A stretch of DNA of 64,000 bases from Deltaproteobacteria bacterium (GTDB taxonomy: Bacteria; Myxococcota_A; Polyangia; JAAYKL01): NCBI GenBank assembly GCA_016935665.1, contig JAFGQN010000110.1:1-64000 (forward strand), read 5' to 3'. A program made the translations under genes and the position numbers. This document shows positions 46,984 to 64,000 of the stretch, one piece after another; positions within the stretch are counted from its first letter, which is position 1, and every line of letters begins with the position of its first letter. The notes below the pieces were generated by a model that made no database searches, had not been told where the DNA came from, and saw nothing but the letters and a program-made list of their open reading frames with translations.

Positions 46984-47313
46984 GTGGACCAGATTATCAA
47001 TGTGAACAAAAAATTACCCAAAATGACATGTCGAATGCCACTATTACAGTGATAAGAGCTTGATGAAAGCAGAGAAATTTTAGCATATGTGGATAATTAA
47101 AATATTAGTGCAGAATAATAATTGTTCAGTTATGACAACACTAAAAATGGCATCCCACAGGTGATAATATTGTGTTATTGTGGCACACATATGTGGTAGA
47201 TGAACACCCACATATGCGTGCAAACATGAAAAAAATGGTATGCATCAATCGCGTCACACCAGAAAATGGAGTGGCTTAAACCATATGTTCTTAAATTTGG
47301 GAGGACAGCAGAA
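46984..47313. other. AT-rich regulatory gap before the GH12-like gene
   Basis: 330 bp, rich in A/T, with three copies of a CATATGTGG-type motif (47084-47092, 47186-47196, and its inverse at 47208-47216). No gene is visible. Confidence 0.5.
47183..47221. promoter_or_regulatory. Pair of CACATATGTG operators (large inverted repeat)
   Basis: GCACACATATGTGG and CCACATATGCGTGC form 14-bp arms with one mismatch and an 11-bp spacer. Each arm is itself a palindrome, centred 23 bp apart, so this could be two sites for one dimeric regulator. It sits 93-131 bp before the GH12-like gene. A third partial copy is at 47084. Confidence 0.5.
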
Positions 47314-49047
47314 ATGAAACGACTACTTTTATTATTTTTGGTTCTTTGGCTTGCCGCTTGCGGGTCGGATGGTGGAGGCACAATTTACGTTGATGACAGC
47401 AATAGCGATAGCAGCGATGGCGACAGCGACAGCGATGGCGACAGTGATAGCGATGGCGACAGCGACAGCGATGGCGACAGTGATAGCGATGGCGACAGCG
47501 ACAGCGATGGCGACAGCGACAGCGATGGTGACAGTGACAGCGATGGTGACAGCGACAGTGACAGCGACGGCGACAGTGACAGCGACGGCGACAGCGACAG
47601 CGATGGAGATGGGACGGTTCCAGGTTATATCGCTACTGGTGATTGGCACGGATGTGCGTGGACAGGTACCGATGGCATGAAAAAAGGCGAAGAGGATAAA
47701 GACGGTAATGTTCTCAGTGTCGTTACTTCTACTGACCCTCTCGATTTCATTAAAAGAAAATCAGATGAAAACTTTTGTATCTCCGGGTCCGTTGGGGACA
47801 CATACGAATCGGTTGCTTTGCTGGGATTCAACCTTAACGAAGATGCCGCTGACGCTGATTGTTCCTATGATCCCGATGCAAACAGTGGCGAAGGCCCCCC
47901 CGAAGTCGAAATCAAGGATGACGGTATTGTTGTGAATATCGCCAGTAATATGAGCAGTGCAACCATCCGTATTCAGATTCAAACCAAAGATGGCGCCGAC
48001 AACGCAGATGAACGCTGGTGCTATGACCTGGGTGTAACGGGTGCTGAGTCTTCGGACGGCGTCAGGGTGTTTGCTCCTTATAAAGAATTTCATAGTACAT
48101 GTTGGGATATTGAAGGCCAGTGGGGCGACCCCGGCGAGTACTACGATAATCAGCCCATTTCAGCAGTTGTTTTCCTGGTTCCTGGGGACACAAAGGAAAC
48201 AGAGTACGACTTCTGTGTGCTTGGCTTTGTTGAAGGCAACGAAGATACCCCAACGCCAGAGAAATTTGGCGACGTGGTAGTGGGCGTTCAAAAAGGGACA
48301 TGTGGCGGTAATGGTGGAGAGGATGACAATTACGACCGTAAAATGGTGTCGGCAGAGGGCTCTTCTTACATCATCCAGAACAACTATTGGGGCAATACGT
48401 CCGGTTGGCAGGAATTATCCTTCGAAGGCAACAGCTGGGAGATCACCCACTTTGAAGGCTCATCCCCGGGCGGAGCGCCAGTATCATTCCCCTCCATTTA
48501 CGTTGGGCAAAATGGCAGCAAAGCATTGAAGACTACCGCAACAGATAATTTGCCTGCGCGCATCAGTGATATTTCCAGTGCTCAGACAACAGTGAAATGG
48601 AGTGGCACTGACCTTGGTGGTGCAAATATGGCATATGATATTTGGTTCTCTGAAGACAGCCCTCCTTTCGGTGGAAAAGAATATGGTGATGCAGTATCTG
48701 GGTTTGCCATGTTGTGGCTGCATATGCCAAACAATGAAGTACCTATTGGTAGTTCTAACGCAACAGCTAATTTCTGCGGTCATAGTTGGGATGTCTGGGT
48801 TGGTCCTCGTGGGAGCTCTCCTGATTACCCTGAGCTTAATTCGAATCGTCCGGTTATTTCATACGTTGTTCAAGGTGGGGATGTGAAGGATTTCAGTTGC
48901 GATCTTAAAGAAATGATGAATGATGCAACCCAGCGCGGGCTTCAATCGAGCTGGTATCTGTCAGATGTTTTTGCCGGATTTGAAATTTGGAGCGGCAATC
49001 CTACTGGTTCCAAGATTAACGAATTCACAATAAAGGTGGAAAAGTAA
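47314..49047 (+). CDS. GH12-like surface lipoprotein with Ser/Asp spacer
   Basis: 577 aa; GGAGG precedes the ATG at 47314. Lipobox LAAC, then about 70 residues of S-D-G-D-S-D repeats. A first domain (about 105-330; DWHGCAWTGTD, ENFCISGSVGDTYESVALLGFNLNE) looks like a jelly-roll carbohydrate-binding module. The second (about 345-577; IIQNNYWGNTSGW, ANMAYDIWFS, VFAGFEIWSG) follows glycoside hydrolase family 12. The acid/base Glu is E557, but the nucleophile position in the family's YE-x-MIWL motif reads GFAMLWL, i.e. Phe464, so it may bind rather than cut glucan. Confidence 0.72.
   Translation: MKRLLLLFLVLWLAACGSDGGGTIYVDDSNSDSSDGDSDSDGDSDSDGDSDSDGDSDSDGDSDSDGDSDSDGDSDSDGDSDSDSDGDSDSDGDSDSDGDGTVPGYIATGDWHGCAWTGTDGMKKGEEDKDGNVLSVVTSTDPLDFIKRKSDENFCISGSVGDTYESVALLGFNLNEDAADADCSYDPDANSGEGPPEVEIKDDGIVVNIASNMSSATIRIQIQTKDGADNADERWCYDLGVTGAESSDGVRVFAPYKEFHSTCWDIEGQWGDPGEYYDNQPISAVVFLVPGDTKETEYDFCVLGFVEGNEDTPTPEKFGDVVVGVQKGTCGGNGGEDDNYDRKMVSAEGSSYIIQNNYWGNTSGWQELSFEGNSWEITHFEGSSPGGAPVSFPSIYVGQNGSKALKTTATDNLPARISDISSAQTTVKWSGTDLGGANMAYDIWFSEDSPPFGGKEYGDAVSGFAMLWLHMPNNEVPIGSSNATANFCGHSWDVWVGPRGSSPDYPELNSNRPVISYVVQGGDVKDFSCDLKEMMNDATQRGLQSSWYLSDVFAGFEIWSGNPTGSKINEFTIKVEK
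47404..47608 (+). repeat. 18-bp tandem repeat coding the Asp-Gly-Asp-Ser-Asp-Ser spacer
   Basis: About eleven imperfect copies of an 18-bp unit (GATGGCGACAGCGACAGC and variants) encode D-G-D-S-D-S repeats of an extended acidic linker. Copy number is likely to vary between strains. Confidence 0.75.
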
Positions 49048-53357: not shown

Positions 53358-55484
53358 CTATTGGTCATTGTCCTGTTCAGTCAATGATGTTTTTGCAAAA
53401 TCGTGGGACTTGGCGGAGCCGATGTTCTCCGCGAGAACCGCAGCCAATCGGTCCAAAATCTGCAATCGTCGATAGGGTTTCTGGATGAACGCGTTGACAC
53501 CATCGGCAAGCAGATTCCTGGTTTCATTGTTGAGGCTATATCCGGATGCGAGCAGCACACGAACGGACGGATTTATCTCCTTCATGGCTCGGTAGGTTTC
53601 TGGGCCGTCCATGACGGGCATAACCATATCAAGAATAACCGCGTCAATGGTCCGCCAATTGGCTCTATAGTAGTCGAGTGCCACCTGTCCGTCTGAAGCA
53701 GTCACCACGCTGTATCCCTGCGTCGACAACATGTCCACACCCAAATTCCGAATGGCTTCTTCGTCGTCAACAATCAATATTACTGCGGGTCGAGATGCCA
53801 CGGTCATATACTCTGGTAAAGACGGCTGGATTGCTTTCTGGTGCTCAATCGGAAGATAGAGGGTAAATGTCGTGCCGCTTCCAGGCGTGCTCTTAACATC
53901 GATCGCGCCATGATGTTGTTTGATGGTTCCATAAACCGCAGCCAGCCCAAGCCCTGTCCCTTTGTTCTGTTTTTTGGTACTGAAAAACGGCTCAAAAATA
54001 TGTGGCAGATTTTCTTTGGGAATCCCGCATCCCGTATCCGCAATTGCGATACTCACGTACGTCCCCGGACGCAGTTCCGCAGAAAGTTGGTGGCAGCAGG
54101 ATTCATCAAGGTTGGTCACATTGGTGGTGAACGTCAGGGTACCCTGTTCATCTGTGGCATCCGCAGCATTGATTGCGATGTTGAGAAGGGCGTTCTCCAG
54201 CAGGGTAGGATCGCCGAGCGTGGTGGACGGTGAAGCCAACAGGTGCAGCCCGATGGCTATCTTCTTGTGAATACTGTGGCTGAGAAAGTCGCAAACCTCC
54301 CGAATCATTTCGTTGATGTCAACTACGACAGACTGGTATTGGCCTTTTCGTGCGAAGGCGAGAAGTTTGGAAGTGAGATCGCTGGCTCGCTGGCTTGCGG
54401 CGACAATGTGTTGTGTGTAACGCAGCAGTTCCGGATCGGCAAGATTGTCATGCAACAGGTCTGCATATCCCATGATGCCGGCGAGCTGGTTGTTGAAATC
54501 GTGTGCAATACCTCCGGCAAGTTGACCAATGGCGTTCATTTTTTCCATCTGTCGCAGTTTCTCCTCAGCTACCTTCTGATCGGTTATATCATCGTAAATG
54601 CCAAGCACGCCCAGCGGACGTCGGTTCTCATCCAACAATGGCGCTTTGGAAGTGTCAATCCAGATTCGGGTACCGTCCTTCTTTTGAAGCGGTTCCACAA
54701 TATGAAGCTTCTGCTGACCGGTCTCCAGAACTTCCATATCGTCTCTGCGATACGCTTCCGTCTCGTGAATTGGCCACGGGAGATCATAATCGGTTTTCCC
54801 GATAATTTCCTCGGGACTCTCGAAACCTGCATGGTTGGCGAAAACACGATTGCAGCCGAGATAAACGCCATCTCGGTCTTTCCAGAAGATCGACTGGGGG
54901 ACTGTATCAAGAACAGTATTAAGCATATTTTTGCTTTTTCTCAGCTCGCCAAGCGCCTGTTCCGTCTCTTTGCGTGCCTGTCCCATTTCACCGATGAGGC
55001 GAGTGAGCCTGTTGAAAAAATCCATTAGTGTTCGAACGTAAAATTCACTGAGGATGGGGACGCGGTCCAGGGCTGCCATATATTTGTCCCTATCGTACCC
55101 GAAATGAAGCGCCTGTTGTTCGAAGCGTTCGCGACTCGGCGGTTCAAAAAAAAATTGGCCGGTAAAAAAGTTGGCGACATGCTGATCGCCGATGACGATG
55201 GGAATCGCAACATCGACAAGCCCGTTTTTGCATTTGTAAACGTTATACTCATGTCCGTTGGCGAGTTGTTGGGCAAGATGCGTATCGCTCTCACGACATC
55301 GGCAGGCGGTCTCCGGGTGTTTGCGATGAAATTCAGTGCAAATATCCTGCCAGCCGGTGGCGATGAGAATATTGCCATCCAAATCGAGTATTGCTGTCAC
55401 CGCACCGGTTAACCTGGTGAAGCTTTCACAGAGCCCATGAAGTTGAGCTACGTCCACGAGCTCCGCGAATATTGCACGTGTCAC
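53358..55484 (-). CDS. PocR/PAS hybrid sensor histidine kinase
   Basis: 708 aa, cytoplasmic. Residues about 1-165 form a PocR-type ligand domain ([62 protein letters not shown]), then a coiled coil, one PAS domain ([28 protein letters not shown]), a kinase core with [13 protein letters not shown] (His), [21 protein letters not shown] and GTGLGLA, and a C-terminal receiver ([13 protein letters not shown] ... [14 protein letters not shown], phospho-Asp). No DNA-binding output. PocR domains bind small diols or hydrocarbons in known cases. Confidence 0.9.
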
Positions 55485-57867: not shown

Positions 57868-59142
57868 TTAACTTTTTCCTTTACGTTTTGATTGAACGTC
57901 AACAAATACTGCAAGAATCAGAACCAGTCCCTGAACCACCCATTGTTTGGATGTTGTCCAACCTAAAATGTCCATACCGTTGTTCAAGCTGCCGATGACC
58001 AGCGCACCAACAACAGCACCGGCAACAGCGCCTTCTCCACCCATGAGACTTGTTCCACCAATAACACACGCGGCGATAGTAAAGAGTTCGTAGTAAGCGC
58101 CACCAGTTGTTGTTCCCATTCCCACATATCCGGTAAGCACCACGCCACAGAGCGCACAAAGAATGCCCATCAGTACAAACACTTTGAAAACAACTTTTTG
58201 GGTGTTAATACCTGAGAGTCTTGTTGCTTCCTGATTGCCACCAAGCGCGTAGATGTACCGACCGAATTTCGTATTGTTGGTAATATAGTGGAAAATCAAC
58301 AAAATAATGACCATCAACAGCACAGGAATTTGAATTCCTTCGTATCCGTTGGCCACATAGAGTACGTAAAACAACACTACTGATGAAATCACACCAGCTT
58401 TGAAAATGTCTTTGGAAAGTGGGTATTTCTCGAAACCATATTTGAATTTCTGTTTACGGCTATAAAGAGTAATGGCAAAAATACATGCCACAACAAGAAT
58501 GGCGAGAATCAGTCCCAGTGTTTTGGGTACATATCCCTGTCCCAGAGACTTTAGAGTGTTTTCAACCGGACCGATGGTTCTGCCGCCGCTCACCAGGAGA
58601 ATGCCGCCCTTGAACCCAAGATAACCACCCAGAGTCACAATAAAAGCAGGTATTCGCAGATACGCAATAAGCGACCCTTGCCAGAGCCCGACAACCAAAC
58701 CGACAATGAGCGCGACTATAATCGACAGGAACGTCGATAACACTCCGTTCATGCTGGTTTCCACGCCCATGAATGTGGTTTGTGCCTGCCAGGCGGGAAA
58801 TGCGCCTGCAAGTATATCCGGGAATATGAAGAATTGGCAATATGCCACAATAACACTGATAAAGCCCACCACCGATCCCACAGACAGGTCGATGTTTCCC
58901 GTAACAATAACGGGTACCATGCCAATCGCTAGGATGGCAATGAGTATCATTTGTCTAACAAGGTTGGAAAGATTTCGGGGAGTAAAAAATACGCCATCTG
59001 TCAGGATACCAAATAATATCCAAATCAACACCAGCGCAATGATCATCGTATACGTTCGAAAATTTGCGCGTATGGAGTCCGCTATCTTTCCCTTGTTTTC
59101 CTGCACAAAATTTTGGATTAGTTCTGTAATGTTCGCAGTCAT
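57868..59142 (-). CDS. xylH: Sugar ABC transporter permease (XylH type)
   Basis: Membrane subunit of a xylose-type importer, 424 aa, about ten helices. Family signatures: [76 protein letters not shown], and the EAA-like loop [22 protein letters not shown]. The long cytoplasmic loop with [12 protein letters not shown] is as in E. coli XylH. It is 9 bp after the ATP-binding gene. Confidence 0.92.
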
Positions 59143-59151
59143 TTTGTTTCC

Positions 59152-60696
59152 TCAGCTGTGTAAAACTTCTACGCCGGTTGCCAGGGTCATAATTCGCTCC
59201 TGGGTTGCATTTTCGTCATTCGGAATGATGCCTGTGCATTTTCCCTCGTGCATAACCAGAATTCGATCACTCATACCCAAAACCTCGGGAAGCTCACTGG
59301 AGACCATTATTATCGCTACGCCCTGGGCAGTTAGAGTGTTCATTAACTTGTAGATTTCGTACTTGGCTCCCACATCGATTCCGCGAGTAGGTTCATCCAG
59401 AATGAGCACTTTCGGCGCCGTCATAATACATTTGGCAATAACAACTTTCTGCTGGTTACCCCCGCTGAGTGTATTAACCGGTACATGAATGCTATGACAT
59501 TTCACCGACAGTTTCTTTGCAGTTTCGTTACATTCATAAAATTCCTTGTTTTGATTTATGCTGAAACGCTCCGCAAATTTATTCATATTGGGGAGGGAAA
59601 TATTTTTCAAGATGGATTGCATAAGAACAAGACCATGTAGTTTTCTGTCCTCGGGCACAAGGCTGATGCCGGCATTCATTGCACTACTTGCGGAATGAAT
59701 GCCGACAGTCTCGCCATCTATCGAAATAGTTCCTTCGAAATTTTTTCCGTATTCTCCAAACAGCGTCGTAACAAGCTCTGTTCGTCCGGCGCCCATGAGA
59801 CCCGCAACACCAAGAATTTCGCCTCGTCGAACTGAAAAAGAGACATTATCCACGCAATTTTTATGAGGCAATACGGGATCAGGCACGGTGATTCCCCGTG
59901 CTTCCAATACGACATCTCCGGGAGTTGCTTCCCTTGCGGGATATCTTTCTGTCATCTCCCGACCCACCATCATCGCAATGATTTTTTCATGGTTAAGGTC
60001 TTTGGTTCTTACGGTATCCACCAAAGTGCCATCCCGCATTATCGTCATGGTGTCAGTGATTCTGAAGAACTCATCCAGCTTGTGTGTAATGTAGATACAT
60101 GTCATACCTTCATTGCGCAGTCGCTCCAGAATTTCCATCAGAACGTCCACTTCTGACTCCGTCAATGCGGAAGTAGGTTCGTCGAGAATCAATATCTTCG
60201 CATTTTCGGACAAGGCTTTGGCAATAACAACCAGTTGCTGTTTGCCCACACCGAGAGAAGAAATTTTCGCGGCAAATGGAATCTTCAGGTTGTATCGCTT
60301 TAATATTTTGTCGGTTTCGGAATACAGTTTGTGCCAATTTATCGCGCCCTTGCTATTGATCGGCTCTCTTCCCAAAAAGATATTCTCGCCGACGGTCATC
60401 TCGGGTACCAGAACCAGTTCCTGGTAAACAATGGCAATTCCCCTTTCAATCGCTTCTTTAATCGCAGTGGATTGAAAGTTGAGTTGCTCATTGTCGAAAA
60501 TGACCTCTCCCTCATAGGAATCTGAAGGGTGGACCCCCGACAATATCTTCATCAGAGTTGATTTACCGGCACCGTTTTCTCCGCAAAGACCATGTATCTC
60601 TCCTCGCTTTACGTTGAAGGAAATATTTGACAATGCGGTGACACCGGGAAACTTCTTCGTCACATTCCGTATTTCTAAAATGTTGTCATCAGTCAT
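59152..60696 (-). CDS. xylG: Sugar ABC transporter ATP-binding protein (XylG type)
   Basis: 514 aa, two ABC domains, as in XylG/RbsA/AraG. GGAAAGC precedes the ATG at 60696. First domain: GLCGENGAGKSTLMK, LSEN-type signature region with SLGVGKQQLVVIAKALSENAKILILDEPTSAL. Second domain has the degenerate Walker A typical for the family (GLMGAGRTEL) but a good signature (LSGGNQQKVVIAKCI) and LILDEPTRGIDVGA. In the same operon between the binding protein and permease. Confidence 0.94.
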   Translation of the reverse strand: MTDDNILEIRNVTKKFPGVTALSNISFNVKRGEIHGLCGENGAGKSTLMKILSGVHPSDSYEGEVIFDNEQLNFQSTAIKEAIERGIAIVYQELVLVPEMTVGENIFLGREPINSKGAINWHKLYSETDKILKRYNLKIPFAAKISSLGVGKQQLVVIAKALSENAKILILDEPTSALTESEVDVLMEILERLRNEGMTCIYITHKLDEFFRITDTMTIMRDGTLVDTVRTKDLNHEKIIAMMVGREMTERYPAREATPGDVVLEARGITVPDPVLPHKNCVDNVSFSVRRGEILGVAGLMGAGRTELVTTLFGEYGKNFEGTISIDGETVGIHSASSAMNAGISLVPEDRKLHGLVLMQSILKNISLPNMNKFAERFSINQNKEFYECNETAKKLSVKCHSIHVPVNTLSGGNQQKVVIAKCIMTAPKVLILDEPTRGIDVGAKYEIYKLMNTLTAQGVAIIMVSSELPEVLGMSDRILVMHEGKCTGIIPNDENATQERIMTLATGVEVLHS

Positions 60697-60860
60697 GTTG
60701 TCGCTTTCCAAATTCGCATCCTCGGTTGTGTCTCAGCTGGCCGAATTTTAATGCTTCAATATTGTGTTCACAAAACACCAGGTGCGTTGCGCTTGTATAC
60801 AAAGTTAATAATGAAGCGGTGTTAACAGTTATTCAGCTGCTGTGGAAGTCTACTCGTTCA

Positions 60861-61991
60861 TCACGGTTTCGGAGGACGCTGATCTTCTGGAACACCAGCG
60901 TACACTTCTTCCCATTTCTGGAATCCGCTCTTAACTACTACGTCGTAAACATTGCCCTTGTCGACCTGAACAACTTTGAGAAATTTACAGGGAACTTCGC
61001 CCTGAAGTTTGTTATCCAGTGTCAGCTCGGCCAGTGAGAAATTCTGCAGACCATCAACGGACTCTTTTTTGGCGAGTTTGTCAGCGATGTCAACTGCGAG
61101 AGGAGTCAGTTCACGAACGTCTTTGAAAACCGTCATGGTCAATTCGCCTTCAACGATAGAACGGCAACCAGGTCCAGTTGCATCCTGTCCGGATATTGGA
61201 ACTTTACCAGCCAGCTTTTGAGCTTTCATTGCCTGGAGAGCACCCAGAGCAGTACCGTCGTTGGATGCTACAACCGCATCGATTTTGTTTTTCTGAGAAG
61301 TCAGAATGTTCTCCATTTTCTTAACAGCAGTTGCCGGGTCCCAGTTTTCTACCCACTGATCAGCAACGATTTTGATGTCGCCTTTGTCGATGAGCGGTTT
61401 CAACACTTCCATCTGGCCGTTTCTGAAAAGAATCGCATTGTTGTCGGTGGGGCTGCCACCCAAAAGAACGAAGTTTCCGCTCTTTTTCTCTTTCAGAATA
61501 CCATTGGCCTGTTGACGACCTACTTCAACGTTGTCAAAGGAAATGTAGCAAGCTACTTTGGGAGATTTGATAAGGCGATCATACGCGATAACCGGAACGC
61601 CTGCTTTGGCTGCATTATCCACAGCAGTGGCTGCGGCAGCGCCATCTTCAGCAATAACGATGATTGCGGCAACACCCTGGGTAACCATGTTTTCGATTTG
61701 GTCGTTCTGGGTTTTGGAATCGTTGTTTGCGCCCTGTGCGATAACTTCGTAACCTTTTTCCTCGAACATTTTCGTCATCAGGTCACGTTCACGAGCCCAT
61801 CTGGCAGTCGCAAAATCAGAAAAGGAAAGACCGATTTTTTTCTTGCCAGGTGCTTTGTTCTCTCCCGCGTCTCCTCCTACTGCATCATTAGGACTAGCGT
61901 CTGTGCCTGTGCTTGACTTGTCGCCGCCGCATCCAAAGGCAAACATGGCTCCAAGTAAGAGCGTAACGAATAAAACAGAATTCTTTCTCAT
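60861..61991 (-). CDS. xylF: D-xylose-type ABC substrate-binding lipoprotein
   Basis: 376 aa; GGAGGAAAG precedes the ATG at 61991, and an upstream in-frame extension is rejected. Lipobox LGAMFAFGC (the E. coli XylF is not a lipoprotein). Periplasmic-binding-protein fold of cluster B: GLSFSDFATARWARERDLMTKMFEEKGYEVIAQGANND, PVIAYDRLI, FDNVEVGRQQA, VVASNDGTALGALQAM, and GQDATG. AYDRLI and the W-A-R-D/E-R segment are those of the XylF group. The GH10 xylanase next to it supports xylose. Confidence 0.92.
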   Translation of the reverse strand: MRKNSVLFVTLLLGAMFAFGCGGDKSSTGTDASPNDAVGGDAGENKAPGKKKIGLSFSDFATARWARERDLMTKMFEEKGYEVIAQGANNDSKTQNDQIENMVTQGVAAIIVIAEDGAAAATAVDNAAKAGVPVIAYDRLIKSPKVACYISFDNVEVGRQQANGILKEKKSGNFVLLGGSPTDNNAILFRNGQMEVLKPLIDKGDIKIVADQWVENWDPATAVKKMENILTSQKNKIDAVVASNDGTALGALQAMKAQKLAGKVPISGQDATGPGCRSIVEGELTMTVFKDVRELTPLAVDIADKLAKKESVDGLQNFSLAELTLDNKLQGEVPCKFLKVVQVDKGNVYDVVVKSGFQKWEEVYAGVPEDQRPPKP

Positions 61992-62633
61992 TTCTTTCCT
62001 CCTGATTAATTGAACCATAGTGCACACTTTATTTTTCGAGCCCAATTGCTCCGAAAAAAGGGTGAACTGATTAAAAATGTCTCCACTCAGGGCAATCAAA
62101 AATGTTTTTTGATAAAACCCTGGAATTTTTTTTAACGCACTTTGTTTACACTACAGACTCATTCCACAAATGTGCGAAAAGTGAAAGTGTAAAATACATA
62201 GTCTGGCAGTCTTTAAGTGCGAAAAATTAAAACGAGAAGAAATATTACGTAAAGAAATATTATTATTGGTGACCATAATGAAACAAACGTTTCTGAAAAT
62301 CCAGGGTTTTTTTAAAAAAAAACAATTGTTCAGGTAAACATTCTGCCGACAGTGCATAGAATGTATCCTCGTTGAAAAATTTTCAAGAAAATTGCTATTT
62401 GGGTGACAAAGGAACTGCAAAAATGCGGTTATATGATGATATTTGTTTTTTAATATTACCGTTTGACTGCATATGATCTCTGTGGTACTTAGGACGGTCC
62501 TGAGTAATACTGCTGCCCAATTCACGGTTTTTCCCAAAAGCACGGTTGAGTATCTCAATTTCGGGGAATGCTTATCTCTGCTGCATTCCCTGGTTATTCT
62601 GAAGCCATAAAGTATTTGCTGATATTATTGCGA
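61992..62633. other. Control region between the xylanase and the xylose transporter
   Basis: 642 bp, strongly AT-rich, no supported gene. It must end xylanase transcription and start xylFGH transcription. Two direct repeats stand out: GTGCGAAAA at 62172-62180 and 62217-62225, and AAGAAATATTA at 62237-62247 and 62252-62262 (15 bp apart). Confidence 0.5.
62237..62262. repeat. 11-bp direct repeat in the xyl control region
   Basis: AAGAAATATTA twice with a 4-bp spacer, i.e. on nearly one and a half turns of the helix. This could be a regulator site or part of the promoter; 245 bp upstream of xylF. Confidence 0.35.
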
Positions 62634-64000
62634 TTATTTTCCAGTTAAAGCGTTCAACACCTGAGTGTAGGTTTCTTTAGGCTGGTTGTTGCTGAAAAGA
62701 AGAGAATTGGAACTGCCACCGTTGCAAAGCGCGCCACTCCAGCTGTTTAACCATGAATTCTGGTCGTTGACGCCCCAAACCGTCAGGGCGGTACATTTGG
62801 GTCTTTTCACGCATTCAGCAGTGATGTCGTGATAGAGCTGCAGCTGTTGCTGCGCGGAAACCTGGTTGCCGCACAGATTAATATCCATTTCGGAGATGAG
62901 GACTTCCAGACCCAGTCCAATGTAGTAATCCATATTGTCGGCCACGTCCTGAGCCGTGGGAATGTTATTGGGCGGACCAATATGCATCTGGAACCCTACA
63001 CCGTCAATCGGAACATTGCGGTCAACCAGCCCTTTGATCATCTGTCTGGCGAATCGTGATTTGTCATTGTCAGCGTCTATACTATAATCATTATAATATA
63101 GCTTCATGTCGTTCCATCCGTTTTGGTCCGCGATTTCACGTGCGTAATTGAACGCAATATCAATATAATCGTCGCCGACCTGTGTATAGAATACCGAATC
63201 TCGCATGCGCGCATTGCCAACGCCGGTATCACTGTCTGTTTTGATGGCTTCGTTCACCACATCCCAGGAGTGAATTCTGTTCCCCCAATGCTCCATCACC
63301 TTTTTAATGTGATTTTGCATGATGCCGACAAGTCGGTCTCTCCCGCGAGACTGTTCCACCCATCCCGCCAACTGGCTGTGCCAAATCAGACAGTGCCCTT
63401 TCACCTTGATTCCAGAACCCGCAGCGTTGACGATACTATCGCCGCCACCGAACGAAAATGAATTTTCGCTGCCCTCAACATTTTGCCATTTCATTTCATT
63501 TTCAGCAGTCCAGTAATTGAAGTGCTCTTTGGCAACGCCATTGGTATTGCCGCTTGATACCGCCGTCCCCATTAAAAGTGGCGGGTCGAGGCATGCGCCG
63601 GCATCTTTAATGTTATTTACCGACTTGCTGCACGGCTGGCGTTCTTCAGGTGCATTTCCAGTATCTGGCTCCGAATCCGGTTCCCCTGTTCCACTATCGG
63701 AATCGTTGTCGCTATCTTCAGTATCTTCGACACCGTCACAACATTGGTCGTTTCCGGGACACTCGCCATCCATAACCGTTCCGCCCCAGGATTGACAGTG
63801 CGGCAGGCATTCATATTGACAGGGGTCGTCGCCATCAGAATCCGAGTCGGAGTCGCCGTCTGCATCGGAGTCGCCATCTGCATCGGAATCGCCGTCTGCA
63901 TCGGAGTCACCGTCCGCATCAGAGTCCCCATCCGCATCTGTATCTCCATCTGAATCTCCGTCCGAGTCAGAATCAGAATCAGAATCTGAATCCCCGTCAC
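62634..64000 (-). CDS. GH10 endo-1,4-beta-xylanase with acidic spacer (N-terminus off the window)
   Basis: The frame runs open to the right edge, so the start is not seen. Visible from that side: a long D-S-D-G-D-S-D-A spacer (63838-64000), a six-Cys stretch (CQYECLPHCQSWGGTVMDGECPGNDQCC), a second acidic spacer, and then a complete GH10 domain of about 330 residues: EHFNYWTAENEMKWQNVEG, GHCLIWHSQLAGWVEQ, the acid/base Glu in WDVVNEAI, and the nucleophile Glu in LISEMDIN. It cuts the xylan backbone outside the cell. Next to the xylose importer. Confidence 0.9.
   Translation of the reverse strand, partial: DGDSDSDSDSDSDGDSDGDTDADGDSDADGDSDADGDSDADGDSDADGDSDSDSDGDDPCQYECLPHCQSWGGTVMDGECPGNDQCCDGVEDTEDSDNDSDSGTGEPDSEPDTGNAPEERQPCSKSVNNIKDAGACLDPPLLMGTAVSSGNTNGVAKEHFNYWTAENEMKWQNVEGSENSFSFGGGDSIVNAAGSGIKVKGHCLIWHSQLAGWVEQSRGRDRLVGIMQNHIKKVMEHWGNRIHSWDVVNEAIKTDSDTGVGNARMRDSVFYTQVGDDYIDIAFNYAREIADQNGWNDMKLYYNDYSIDADNDKSRFARQMIKGLVDRNVPIDGVGFQMHIGPPNNIPTAQDVADNMDYYIGLGLEVLISEMDINLCGNQVSAQQQLQLYHDITAECVKRPKCTALTVWGVNDQNSWLNSWSGALCNGGSSNSLLFSNNQPKETYTQVLNALTGK
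63838..64000 (-). repeat. 18-bp tandem repeat coding the Asp/Ser/Ala spacer of the xylanase
   Basis: Repeats of an 18-bp unit, read on the minus strand as D-A-D-G-D-S, continue to the window edge. Same unit length and similar sense to the repeat in the GH12-like gene on the other strand. Confidence 0.7.

Follow-up and report, generated by a model that had tools for sequence, protein, structure and literature searches.

The covalent glycosyl-enzyme of the retaining mechanism cannot be formed by a protein of glycoside hydrolase family 12 (GH12) that is without its nucleophile. In the GH12 domain of Acidothermus GuxA the nucleophile is Glu131, the acid/base is Glu216 and Asp114 is the strictly conserved active-site Asp (PMC9181691). 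Loss of an essential Glu in this family has been described for PsXLP1 of the oomycete Phytophthora sojae, a GH12 paralogue which is catalytically inactive (PMC8960721). In another family, GH45, the enzymes of subfamily C are active without the canonical base, and the expansins keep the acid only (PMC10909974). A nucleophile-less bacterial GH12 group or clade was not found described in open-access full text.

The window, that is the whole stretch of 64,000 nucleotides that was analysed, carries at 47314-49047 (+ strand) an ATG-initiated gene for a lipoprotein of 577 aa whose C-terminal domain is a GH12 domain lacking the nucleophile (pseudo-GH12). The sequence GGGAGG lies upstream of this ATG at 47299-47304. 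The protein begins with MKRLLLLFLVLWLAAC-G, in which the signal peptide and the lipobox LAAC (47314-47361, +; recognised from the sequence and by a lipobox rule) end at the predicted acylated Cys16, followed by Gly. A low-complexity linker made mostly of SDSDGD repeats comes next (47362-47610, +), and its matches in NCBIfam were only adhesin Ser-Asp repeat stretches below the cut-off. The linker of one paralogue (L003, G000:C218) contains about 50 consecutive Asp residues, and SDGD repeats were seen in other paralogues. The rest of the protein comprises an N-terminal beta-sandwich domain with a CBM11/CBM30-like fold (residues ~104-315; 47623-48258, +) and the GH12-fold domain (residues 349-577; 48358-49044, +).

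The sole significant Pfam family was Glyco_hydro_12 (PF01670), which matched residues 351-576 with 82.4 bits against a cut-off of 27 (E 6e-23). The phmmer search against PDB sequences gave 28 matches with 1oa4 as the best (2e-30), and the matches listed were all named endoglucanases, cellulases, xyloglucanases or glycoside hydrolases; the GH12 domain of GuxA (7mkr) was the second-best solved relative. The two domains were modelled with AlphaFold2 using 37 rows of our own, with a mean pLDDT of 87.4 (model residue number + 97 gives the protein numbering). The best 50 PDB matches of the model in Foldseek were GH12 structures, and 1oa4 (Cel12A) stood first with a TM by target of 0.90 and an rmsd of 2.5. 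The profile, the beta-jelly-roll fold, the acid/base Glu and the active-site Asp of GH12 are all present in this domain, while the nucleophile Glu of the E-x-M-x-W strand is absent. The fold is the GH12 jelly roll and not the double-psi beta-barrel of expansins and loosenins. The preliminary description had called the domain GH12-like, and this was borne out by the HMM search and the structure prediction; its residue numbering and its landmarks, namely NNYWG (356-360), AYDIWFS with Asp442, GFAMLWL with Phe464 and AGFEIWSG with Glu557, were also correct.

The residue occupying the nucleophile position was analysed by multiple alignment, which placed the GH12 nucleophile, acid/base and Asp columns on Phe464 (TTT, 48703-48705, +), Glu557 (GAA, 48982-48984, +) and Asp442 (48637-48639, +), the equivalents of Glu131, Glu216 and Asp114 of GuxA. 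The model is in accordance with the alignment for Phe464, as the predicted strand 463-470 (GFAMLWLH) is continuous, and all 55 rows of the clade treated below have their aromatic residue or Leu precisely two positions ahead of the invariant Met466. Phe464 had been put at the nucleophile Glu in the preliminary description, with the expectation that homologues would share the change; the alignment and the uninterrupted strand uphold this position, and 55 Myxococcota rows with F, Y, W or L, all in one clade, share it. Another conserved Glu at this position had been named there as the finding that would speak against the idea. A substitute carboxylate was accordingly searched for in all columns and in the 12 residues upstream of the aromatic, and no replacement Glu or Asp was conserved across the 55-row clade. 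The acidic columns over the threshold besides D442 and E557 were D530 (89% of the clade and 83% of the canonical rows) and D537 (87% and 42%), both lying outside the nucleophile strand and neither being invariant. An Asp five positions before the aromatic (Asp459 here) occurs in 18 of the 27 Phe rows, in both Leu rows and in none of the 25 Tyr rows; a role in the Phe branch is conceivable, but the clade as a whole cannot be explained by it. Sequencing error or chance was rejected as the cause of Phe464, as three base changes are required between TTT and GAA or GAG, and a non-Glu residue stands at the same column in a 74%-identical homologue of the same genus (L005/L105) and in about 50 more distant homologues.

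The homologues were drawn from GTDB genome contigs and relatives, covering two phyla, Myxococcota and Actinomycetota, and 151 domains were aligned by HMM. The nucleophile column of the distinct rows held E in 76, F in 27, Y in 25, L in 2, W, S and D in one each and a gap in 3, and the acid/base Glu was present in every distinct row. Among the rows analysed, E or D stood there in all 10 from actinobacteria (Glu throughout) and in all 26 canonical ones from Myxococcota. The 55 Myxococcota clade rows showed F (27), Y (25), W (1) and L (2) at this column, whereas the equivalents of Glu557 and Asp442 were kept in 55/55. Four GH12 domains were detected in the host genome (8.16 Mb) with F, F, W and Y at the nucleophile column, and the host is therefore without a canonical-nucleophile GH12 among those detected. 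Glu-bearing canonical Myxococcota GH12s coexist with the aromatic type within one genome in other cases (e.g. G061, G066, G040, G001 and G002), and lineage bias is thus not the cause of the aromatic residue. The aromatic type was found in at least five family codes (f1, f4, f7, f11 and f25) of one bacterial class, and a second, evenly drawn sample of the phylum added three genomes (G342, G374 and G398), again mostly aromatic.

The phylogeny of 91 rows was calculated using IQ-TREE with the nucleophile column removed and two very divergent rows (L134 and L140) left out. All 55 non-Glu rows fell on one side of one branch with a support of 98/96; this split was present in 98% of the bootstrap trees, and shuffling gave a mean of 28 changes. 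Several independent losses of Glu were rejected on the basis of this one clade at 98/96, with L140 and L134 omitted. L140 carries Glu at the nucleophile position on a branch of length 1.7 and fell inside the clade in a quick tree with both rows included, which may reflect one reversal or a misplacement. The other row, L134 (G001:C365), has Ser at the nucleophile and Lys at the active-site Asp, and still keeps the acid/base Glu. At least 10 changes between F, Y, W and L are needed within the clade on the tree made without this column, indicating that the site is free to vary yet remains bulky and hydrophobic.

The positions conserved at 100% in the clade were Y352, N357, W359, P393, G398, P414, D442, M466, W468, P477, G555 and E557, of which Asn357 and Trp359 are encoded within 48382-48390 (+); several of the clade-invariant positions are less conserved in the canonical rows, which are more diverse. 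The dN/dS values (Nei-Gojobori) for eight unsaturated clade pairs ranged from 0.07 to 0.35, and in the pair of the window gene with L005 the synonymous sites were saturated (pS 0.76, pN 0.19). The values of the eight pairs indicate purifying selection and not decay. The aromatic-for-Glu change is not a private mutation; it marks a whole clade of single origin whose cleft is otherwise strictly conserved.

The N-terminal domain modelled alone had a pLDDT of 85. The top Foldseek match was a complex I assembly-intermediate (assembly-factor) chain (1.9e-4), the match to CBM11 of Clostridium thermocellum was weak (E 3e-4 to 6e-4, TM by target 0.54-0.60, rmsd 6-8 A) and that to CBM30 was weaker. This CBM11 belongs to the cellulase Lic26A-Cel5E (1v0a, 6r31), and it matches the present domain in its beta-sandwich fold with a TM by target of ~0.6 and at <15% identity. 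The N-terminal part of the lipoprotein had no match in Pfam. At best, the model suggests a CBM11/CBM30-type jelly roll, and the domain, being without a Pfam family, may be an undescribed CBM. Within the set, 46 ORFs with GH12 contain it (some of them one gene fetched twice); Glu stands at the nucleophile column in two of these, L114 and L140, and Ser in a third, L134, while the remainder are of the aromatic or Leu type. The host genome has the same domain joined to a GH5 enzyme in L152 (PF00150, 65 bits) and by itself in L153. A Cys-rich segment lies between the N-type domain and GH5 in the former (G000:C195, 1198-3096). None of the homologue ORFs gathered showed a pseudo-GH12 joined to a catalytic domain. 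Seven Tyr/Phe-type proteins (L021, L023, L025, L026, L029, L043 and L115) are devoid of the CBM11-like domain and have another, unnamed, Cys-containing N-terminal domain (QGxxYxYGDG...CCxSG). Tandem pseudo-GH12 lipoprotein genes were observed at L122 (G002:C248), where a further protein with the N-domain adjoins, and on G005:C38 (L086 and L100).

The crude lipobox rule was passed by 33 of the 45 complete clade ORFs, 9 of the 21 canonical Myxococcota ORFs and none of the 10 actinobacterial ORFs. These counts include one false positive in the clade (L016) and one among the canonical Myxococcota (L101), and several clade ORFs with a lipobox visible by eye were left unscored by the rule (e.g. L025, L043, L131 and L136).

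The nearest neighbours of the lipoprotein gene are a GntP-type permease ORF, a TetR regulator, a TPR protein and a Big_5 lipoprotein. A hybrid histidine kinase with a PocR sensory domain, PAS and a receiver domain is encoded near the lipoprotein genes at 53358-55484. A sugar ABC transporter consisting of permease, ATPase and periplasmic binding protein (57868-62099, - strand) and, behind it, a GH10 xylanase (62634-63773, -) lie 9-15 kb from the lipoprotein gene and likely constitute a xylan/xylose uptake group (57868-63773). These genes fit a saprophyte and form no gene cluster with the lipoprotein. Ten scanned ORFs from the flanks of homologues encode efflux, kinase, transporter and unknown proteins and no wall enzymes, so that a shared CAZyme neighbourhood was not seen among them. 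The earlier suggestion that the protein is kept beside true plant-wall enzymes is therefore weak, as the nearest such gene among the ORFs from 37.8 kb on is the GH10 at 13.6 kb and the scanned ORFs of the homologue flanks show no shared enzyme cluster.

Considering these results together, it is likely, though well short of certain, that the lipoprotein represents an old and maintained pseudo-GH12 clade, tethered to the surface, which has lost its nucleophile and probably serves as a glucan-binding module with the CBM11-like domain. In the proposed course of events, a GH12 endoglucanase of a Myxococcota ancestor would have had its nucleophile Glu replaced by an aromatic residue, and the domain would no longer be able to form the glycosyl-enzyme intermediate. 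The glucan cleft is otherwise kept (Trp359, Asn357, Asp442, Trp468 and Glu557) with an aromatic ring in place of Glu. The lipoprotein, with its acidic linker, CBM11-like domain and C-terminal pseudo-GH12, is probably displayed on the outer surface, where the two domains would most likely hold beta-glucan near the cell, within reach of secreted enzymes that cut it. The pseudo-GH12 would have lost hydrolysis; GH45 subfamily C illustrates that an enzyme lacking a catalytic residue can remain active. The invariant Glu557 and Asp442 are not obviously needed by a pure binding module, and Glu557 is the main unexplained point of the binding reading; it may form a hydrogen bond to the bound sugar or may perform residual chemistry.

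It is possible, if doubtful, that this old GH12-derived Myxococcota clade acts on glucans by the general acid alone, either as a non-hydrolytic wall loosener that emerged in the GH12 fold much as expansins did beside GH45, or as a nucleophile-free glycosidase/transglycosylase. An enzyme still working by an unusual mechanism, with Glu557 as the acid and Asp442, or the loop Asp459 in the Phe branch, as base or nucleophile, or with Tyr as the nucleophile in the Tyr-type members, is unlikely. In favour of such an enzyme, sialidases use Tyr as a nucleophile, no member of the clade has lost Glu557 or Asp442, and the Asp at -5 is retained in most Phe-type and both Leu-type rows. On the other hand, Phe, Trp and Leu are unable to serve as nucleophiles, F and Y interchange repeatedly, the acid at -5 is missing from every Tyr-type row and no new carboxylate is conserved clade-wide. 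Tyr as the nucleophile throughout the clade was rejected, half of the members having Phe. The cutting of cellulose by GH45 subfamily C without the canonical base (PMC10909974) again speaks for an unusual enzyme. Loosening of the wall in the manner of expansins, in which the cleft and the general acid would disturb the packing of glucan without cutting it, is quite unlikely: the pattern of acid kept and base lost separates expansins, loosenins and swollenins from GH45 (PMC10909974) and the acid is invariant here, but the fold differs from that of expansins and a lipid anchor would confine the action to the cell surface.

The remaining explanations are far less probable. A functionless pseudoenzyme in decay is hardly credible; L134 has lost more than the nucleophile and some members (L002 and L004) lie on long branches, but decay is contradicted by the dN/dS values of the eight clade pairs, the open frames, the invariant cleft and the many paralogues and lineages. 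That another Glu or Asp truly occupies the nucleophile position, and Phe464 is misaligned, is very improbable as well. Pairwise phmmer does set a four-residue gap inside the strand, directly before Met466, by which the Glu slips to Ala461 or its neighbours. In our judgement this slip is an artefact of alignment, because the strand is unbroken in the model, the invariant Met466 and Trp468 anchor the alignment, and the residue stands exactly two before Met in 55 homologues; the 12 residues before the aromatic also hold no acid conserved clade-wide.

The pseudo-GH12 favoured here resembles the GH12 endoglucanases Cel12A (1oa4), Streptomyces CelB2 (1nlr) and Acidothermus GuxA (7mkr) in fold, Pfam family, acid/base Glu, active-site Asp and the Trp and Asn of the cleft, and differs from them in the aromatic residue for the nucleophile Glu and in belonging to a lipoprotein with a CBM11-like domain. 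In PsXLP1 a C-terminal deletion removed the other catalytic residue, and PsXLP1 is a single decoy protein rather than a clade of long standing in which the nucleophile has specifically given way to an aromatic residue. GH45 subfamily C and the expansins and loosenins, like the present clade, kept the general acid and lost the second catalytic residue (PMC10909974), whereas they have a double-psi barrel, belong to an inverting family and use other residues, and subfamily C is still active. A GH12 inactivated in another way was already known in an oomycete; for the nucleophile-less bacterial GH12 clade, the open-access papers searched held no description.

Profile-based annotation labels the proteins of this clade as cellulases (GH12). 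Counts of cellulases in Myxococcota, those for fen and soil genomes included, are inflated because the profiles call the clade GH12, and all four GH12 calls of the host genome are without the nucleophile. The clade also offers a natural experiment across many genomes, in which a retaining glycosidase is turning into something else, with one catalytic residue lost, an aromatic residue chosen repeatedly and the acid strictly kept. If glucan binding is true, the domain would be a binding module derived from a glycoside hydrolase; if it acts on glucan, it would represent a new mechanism in the GH12 fold.
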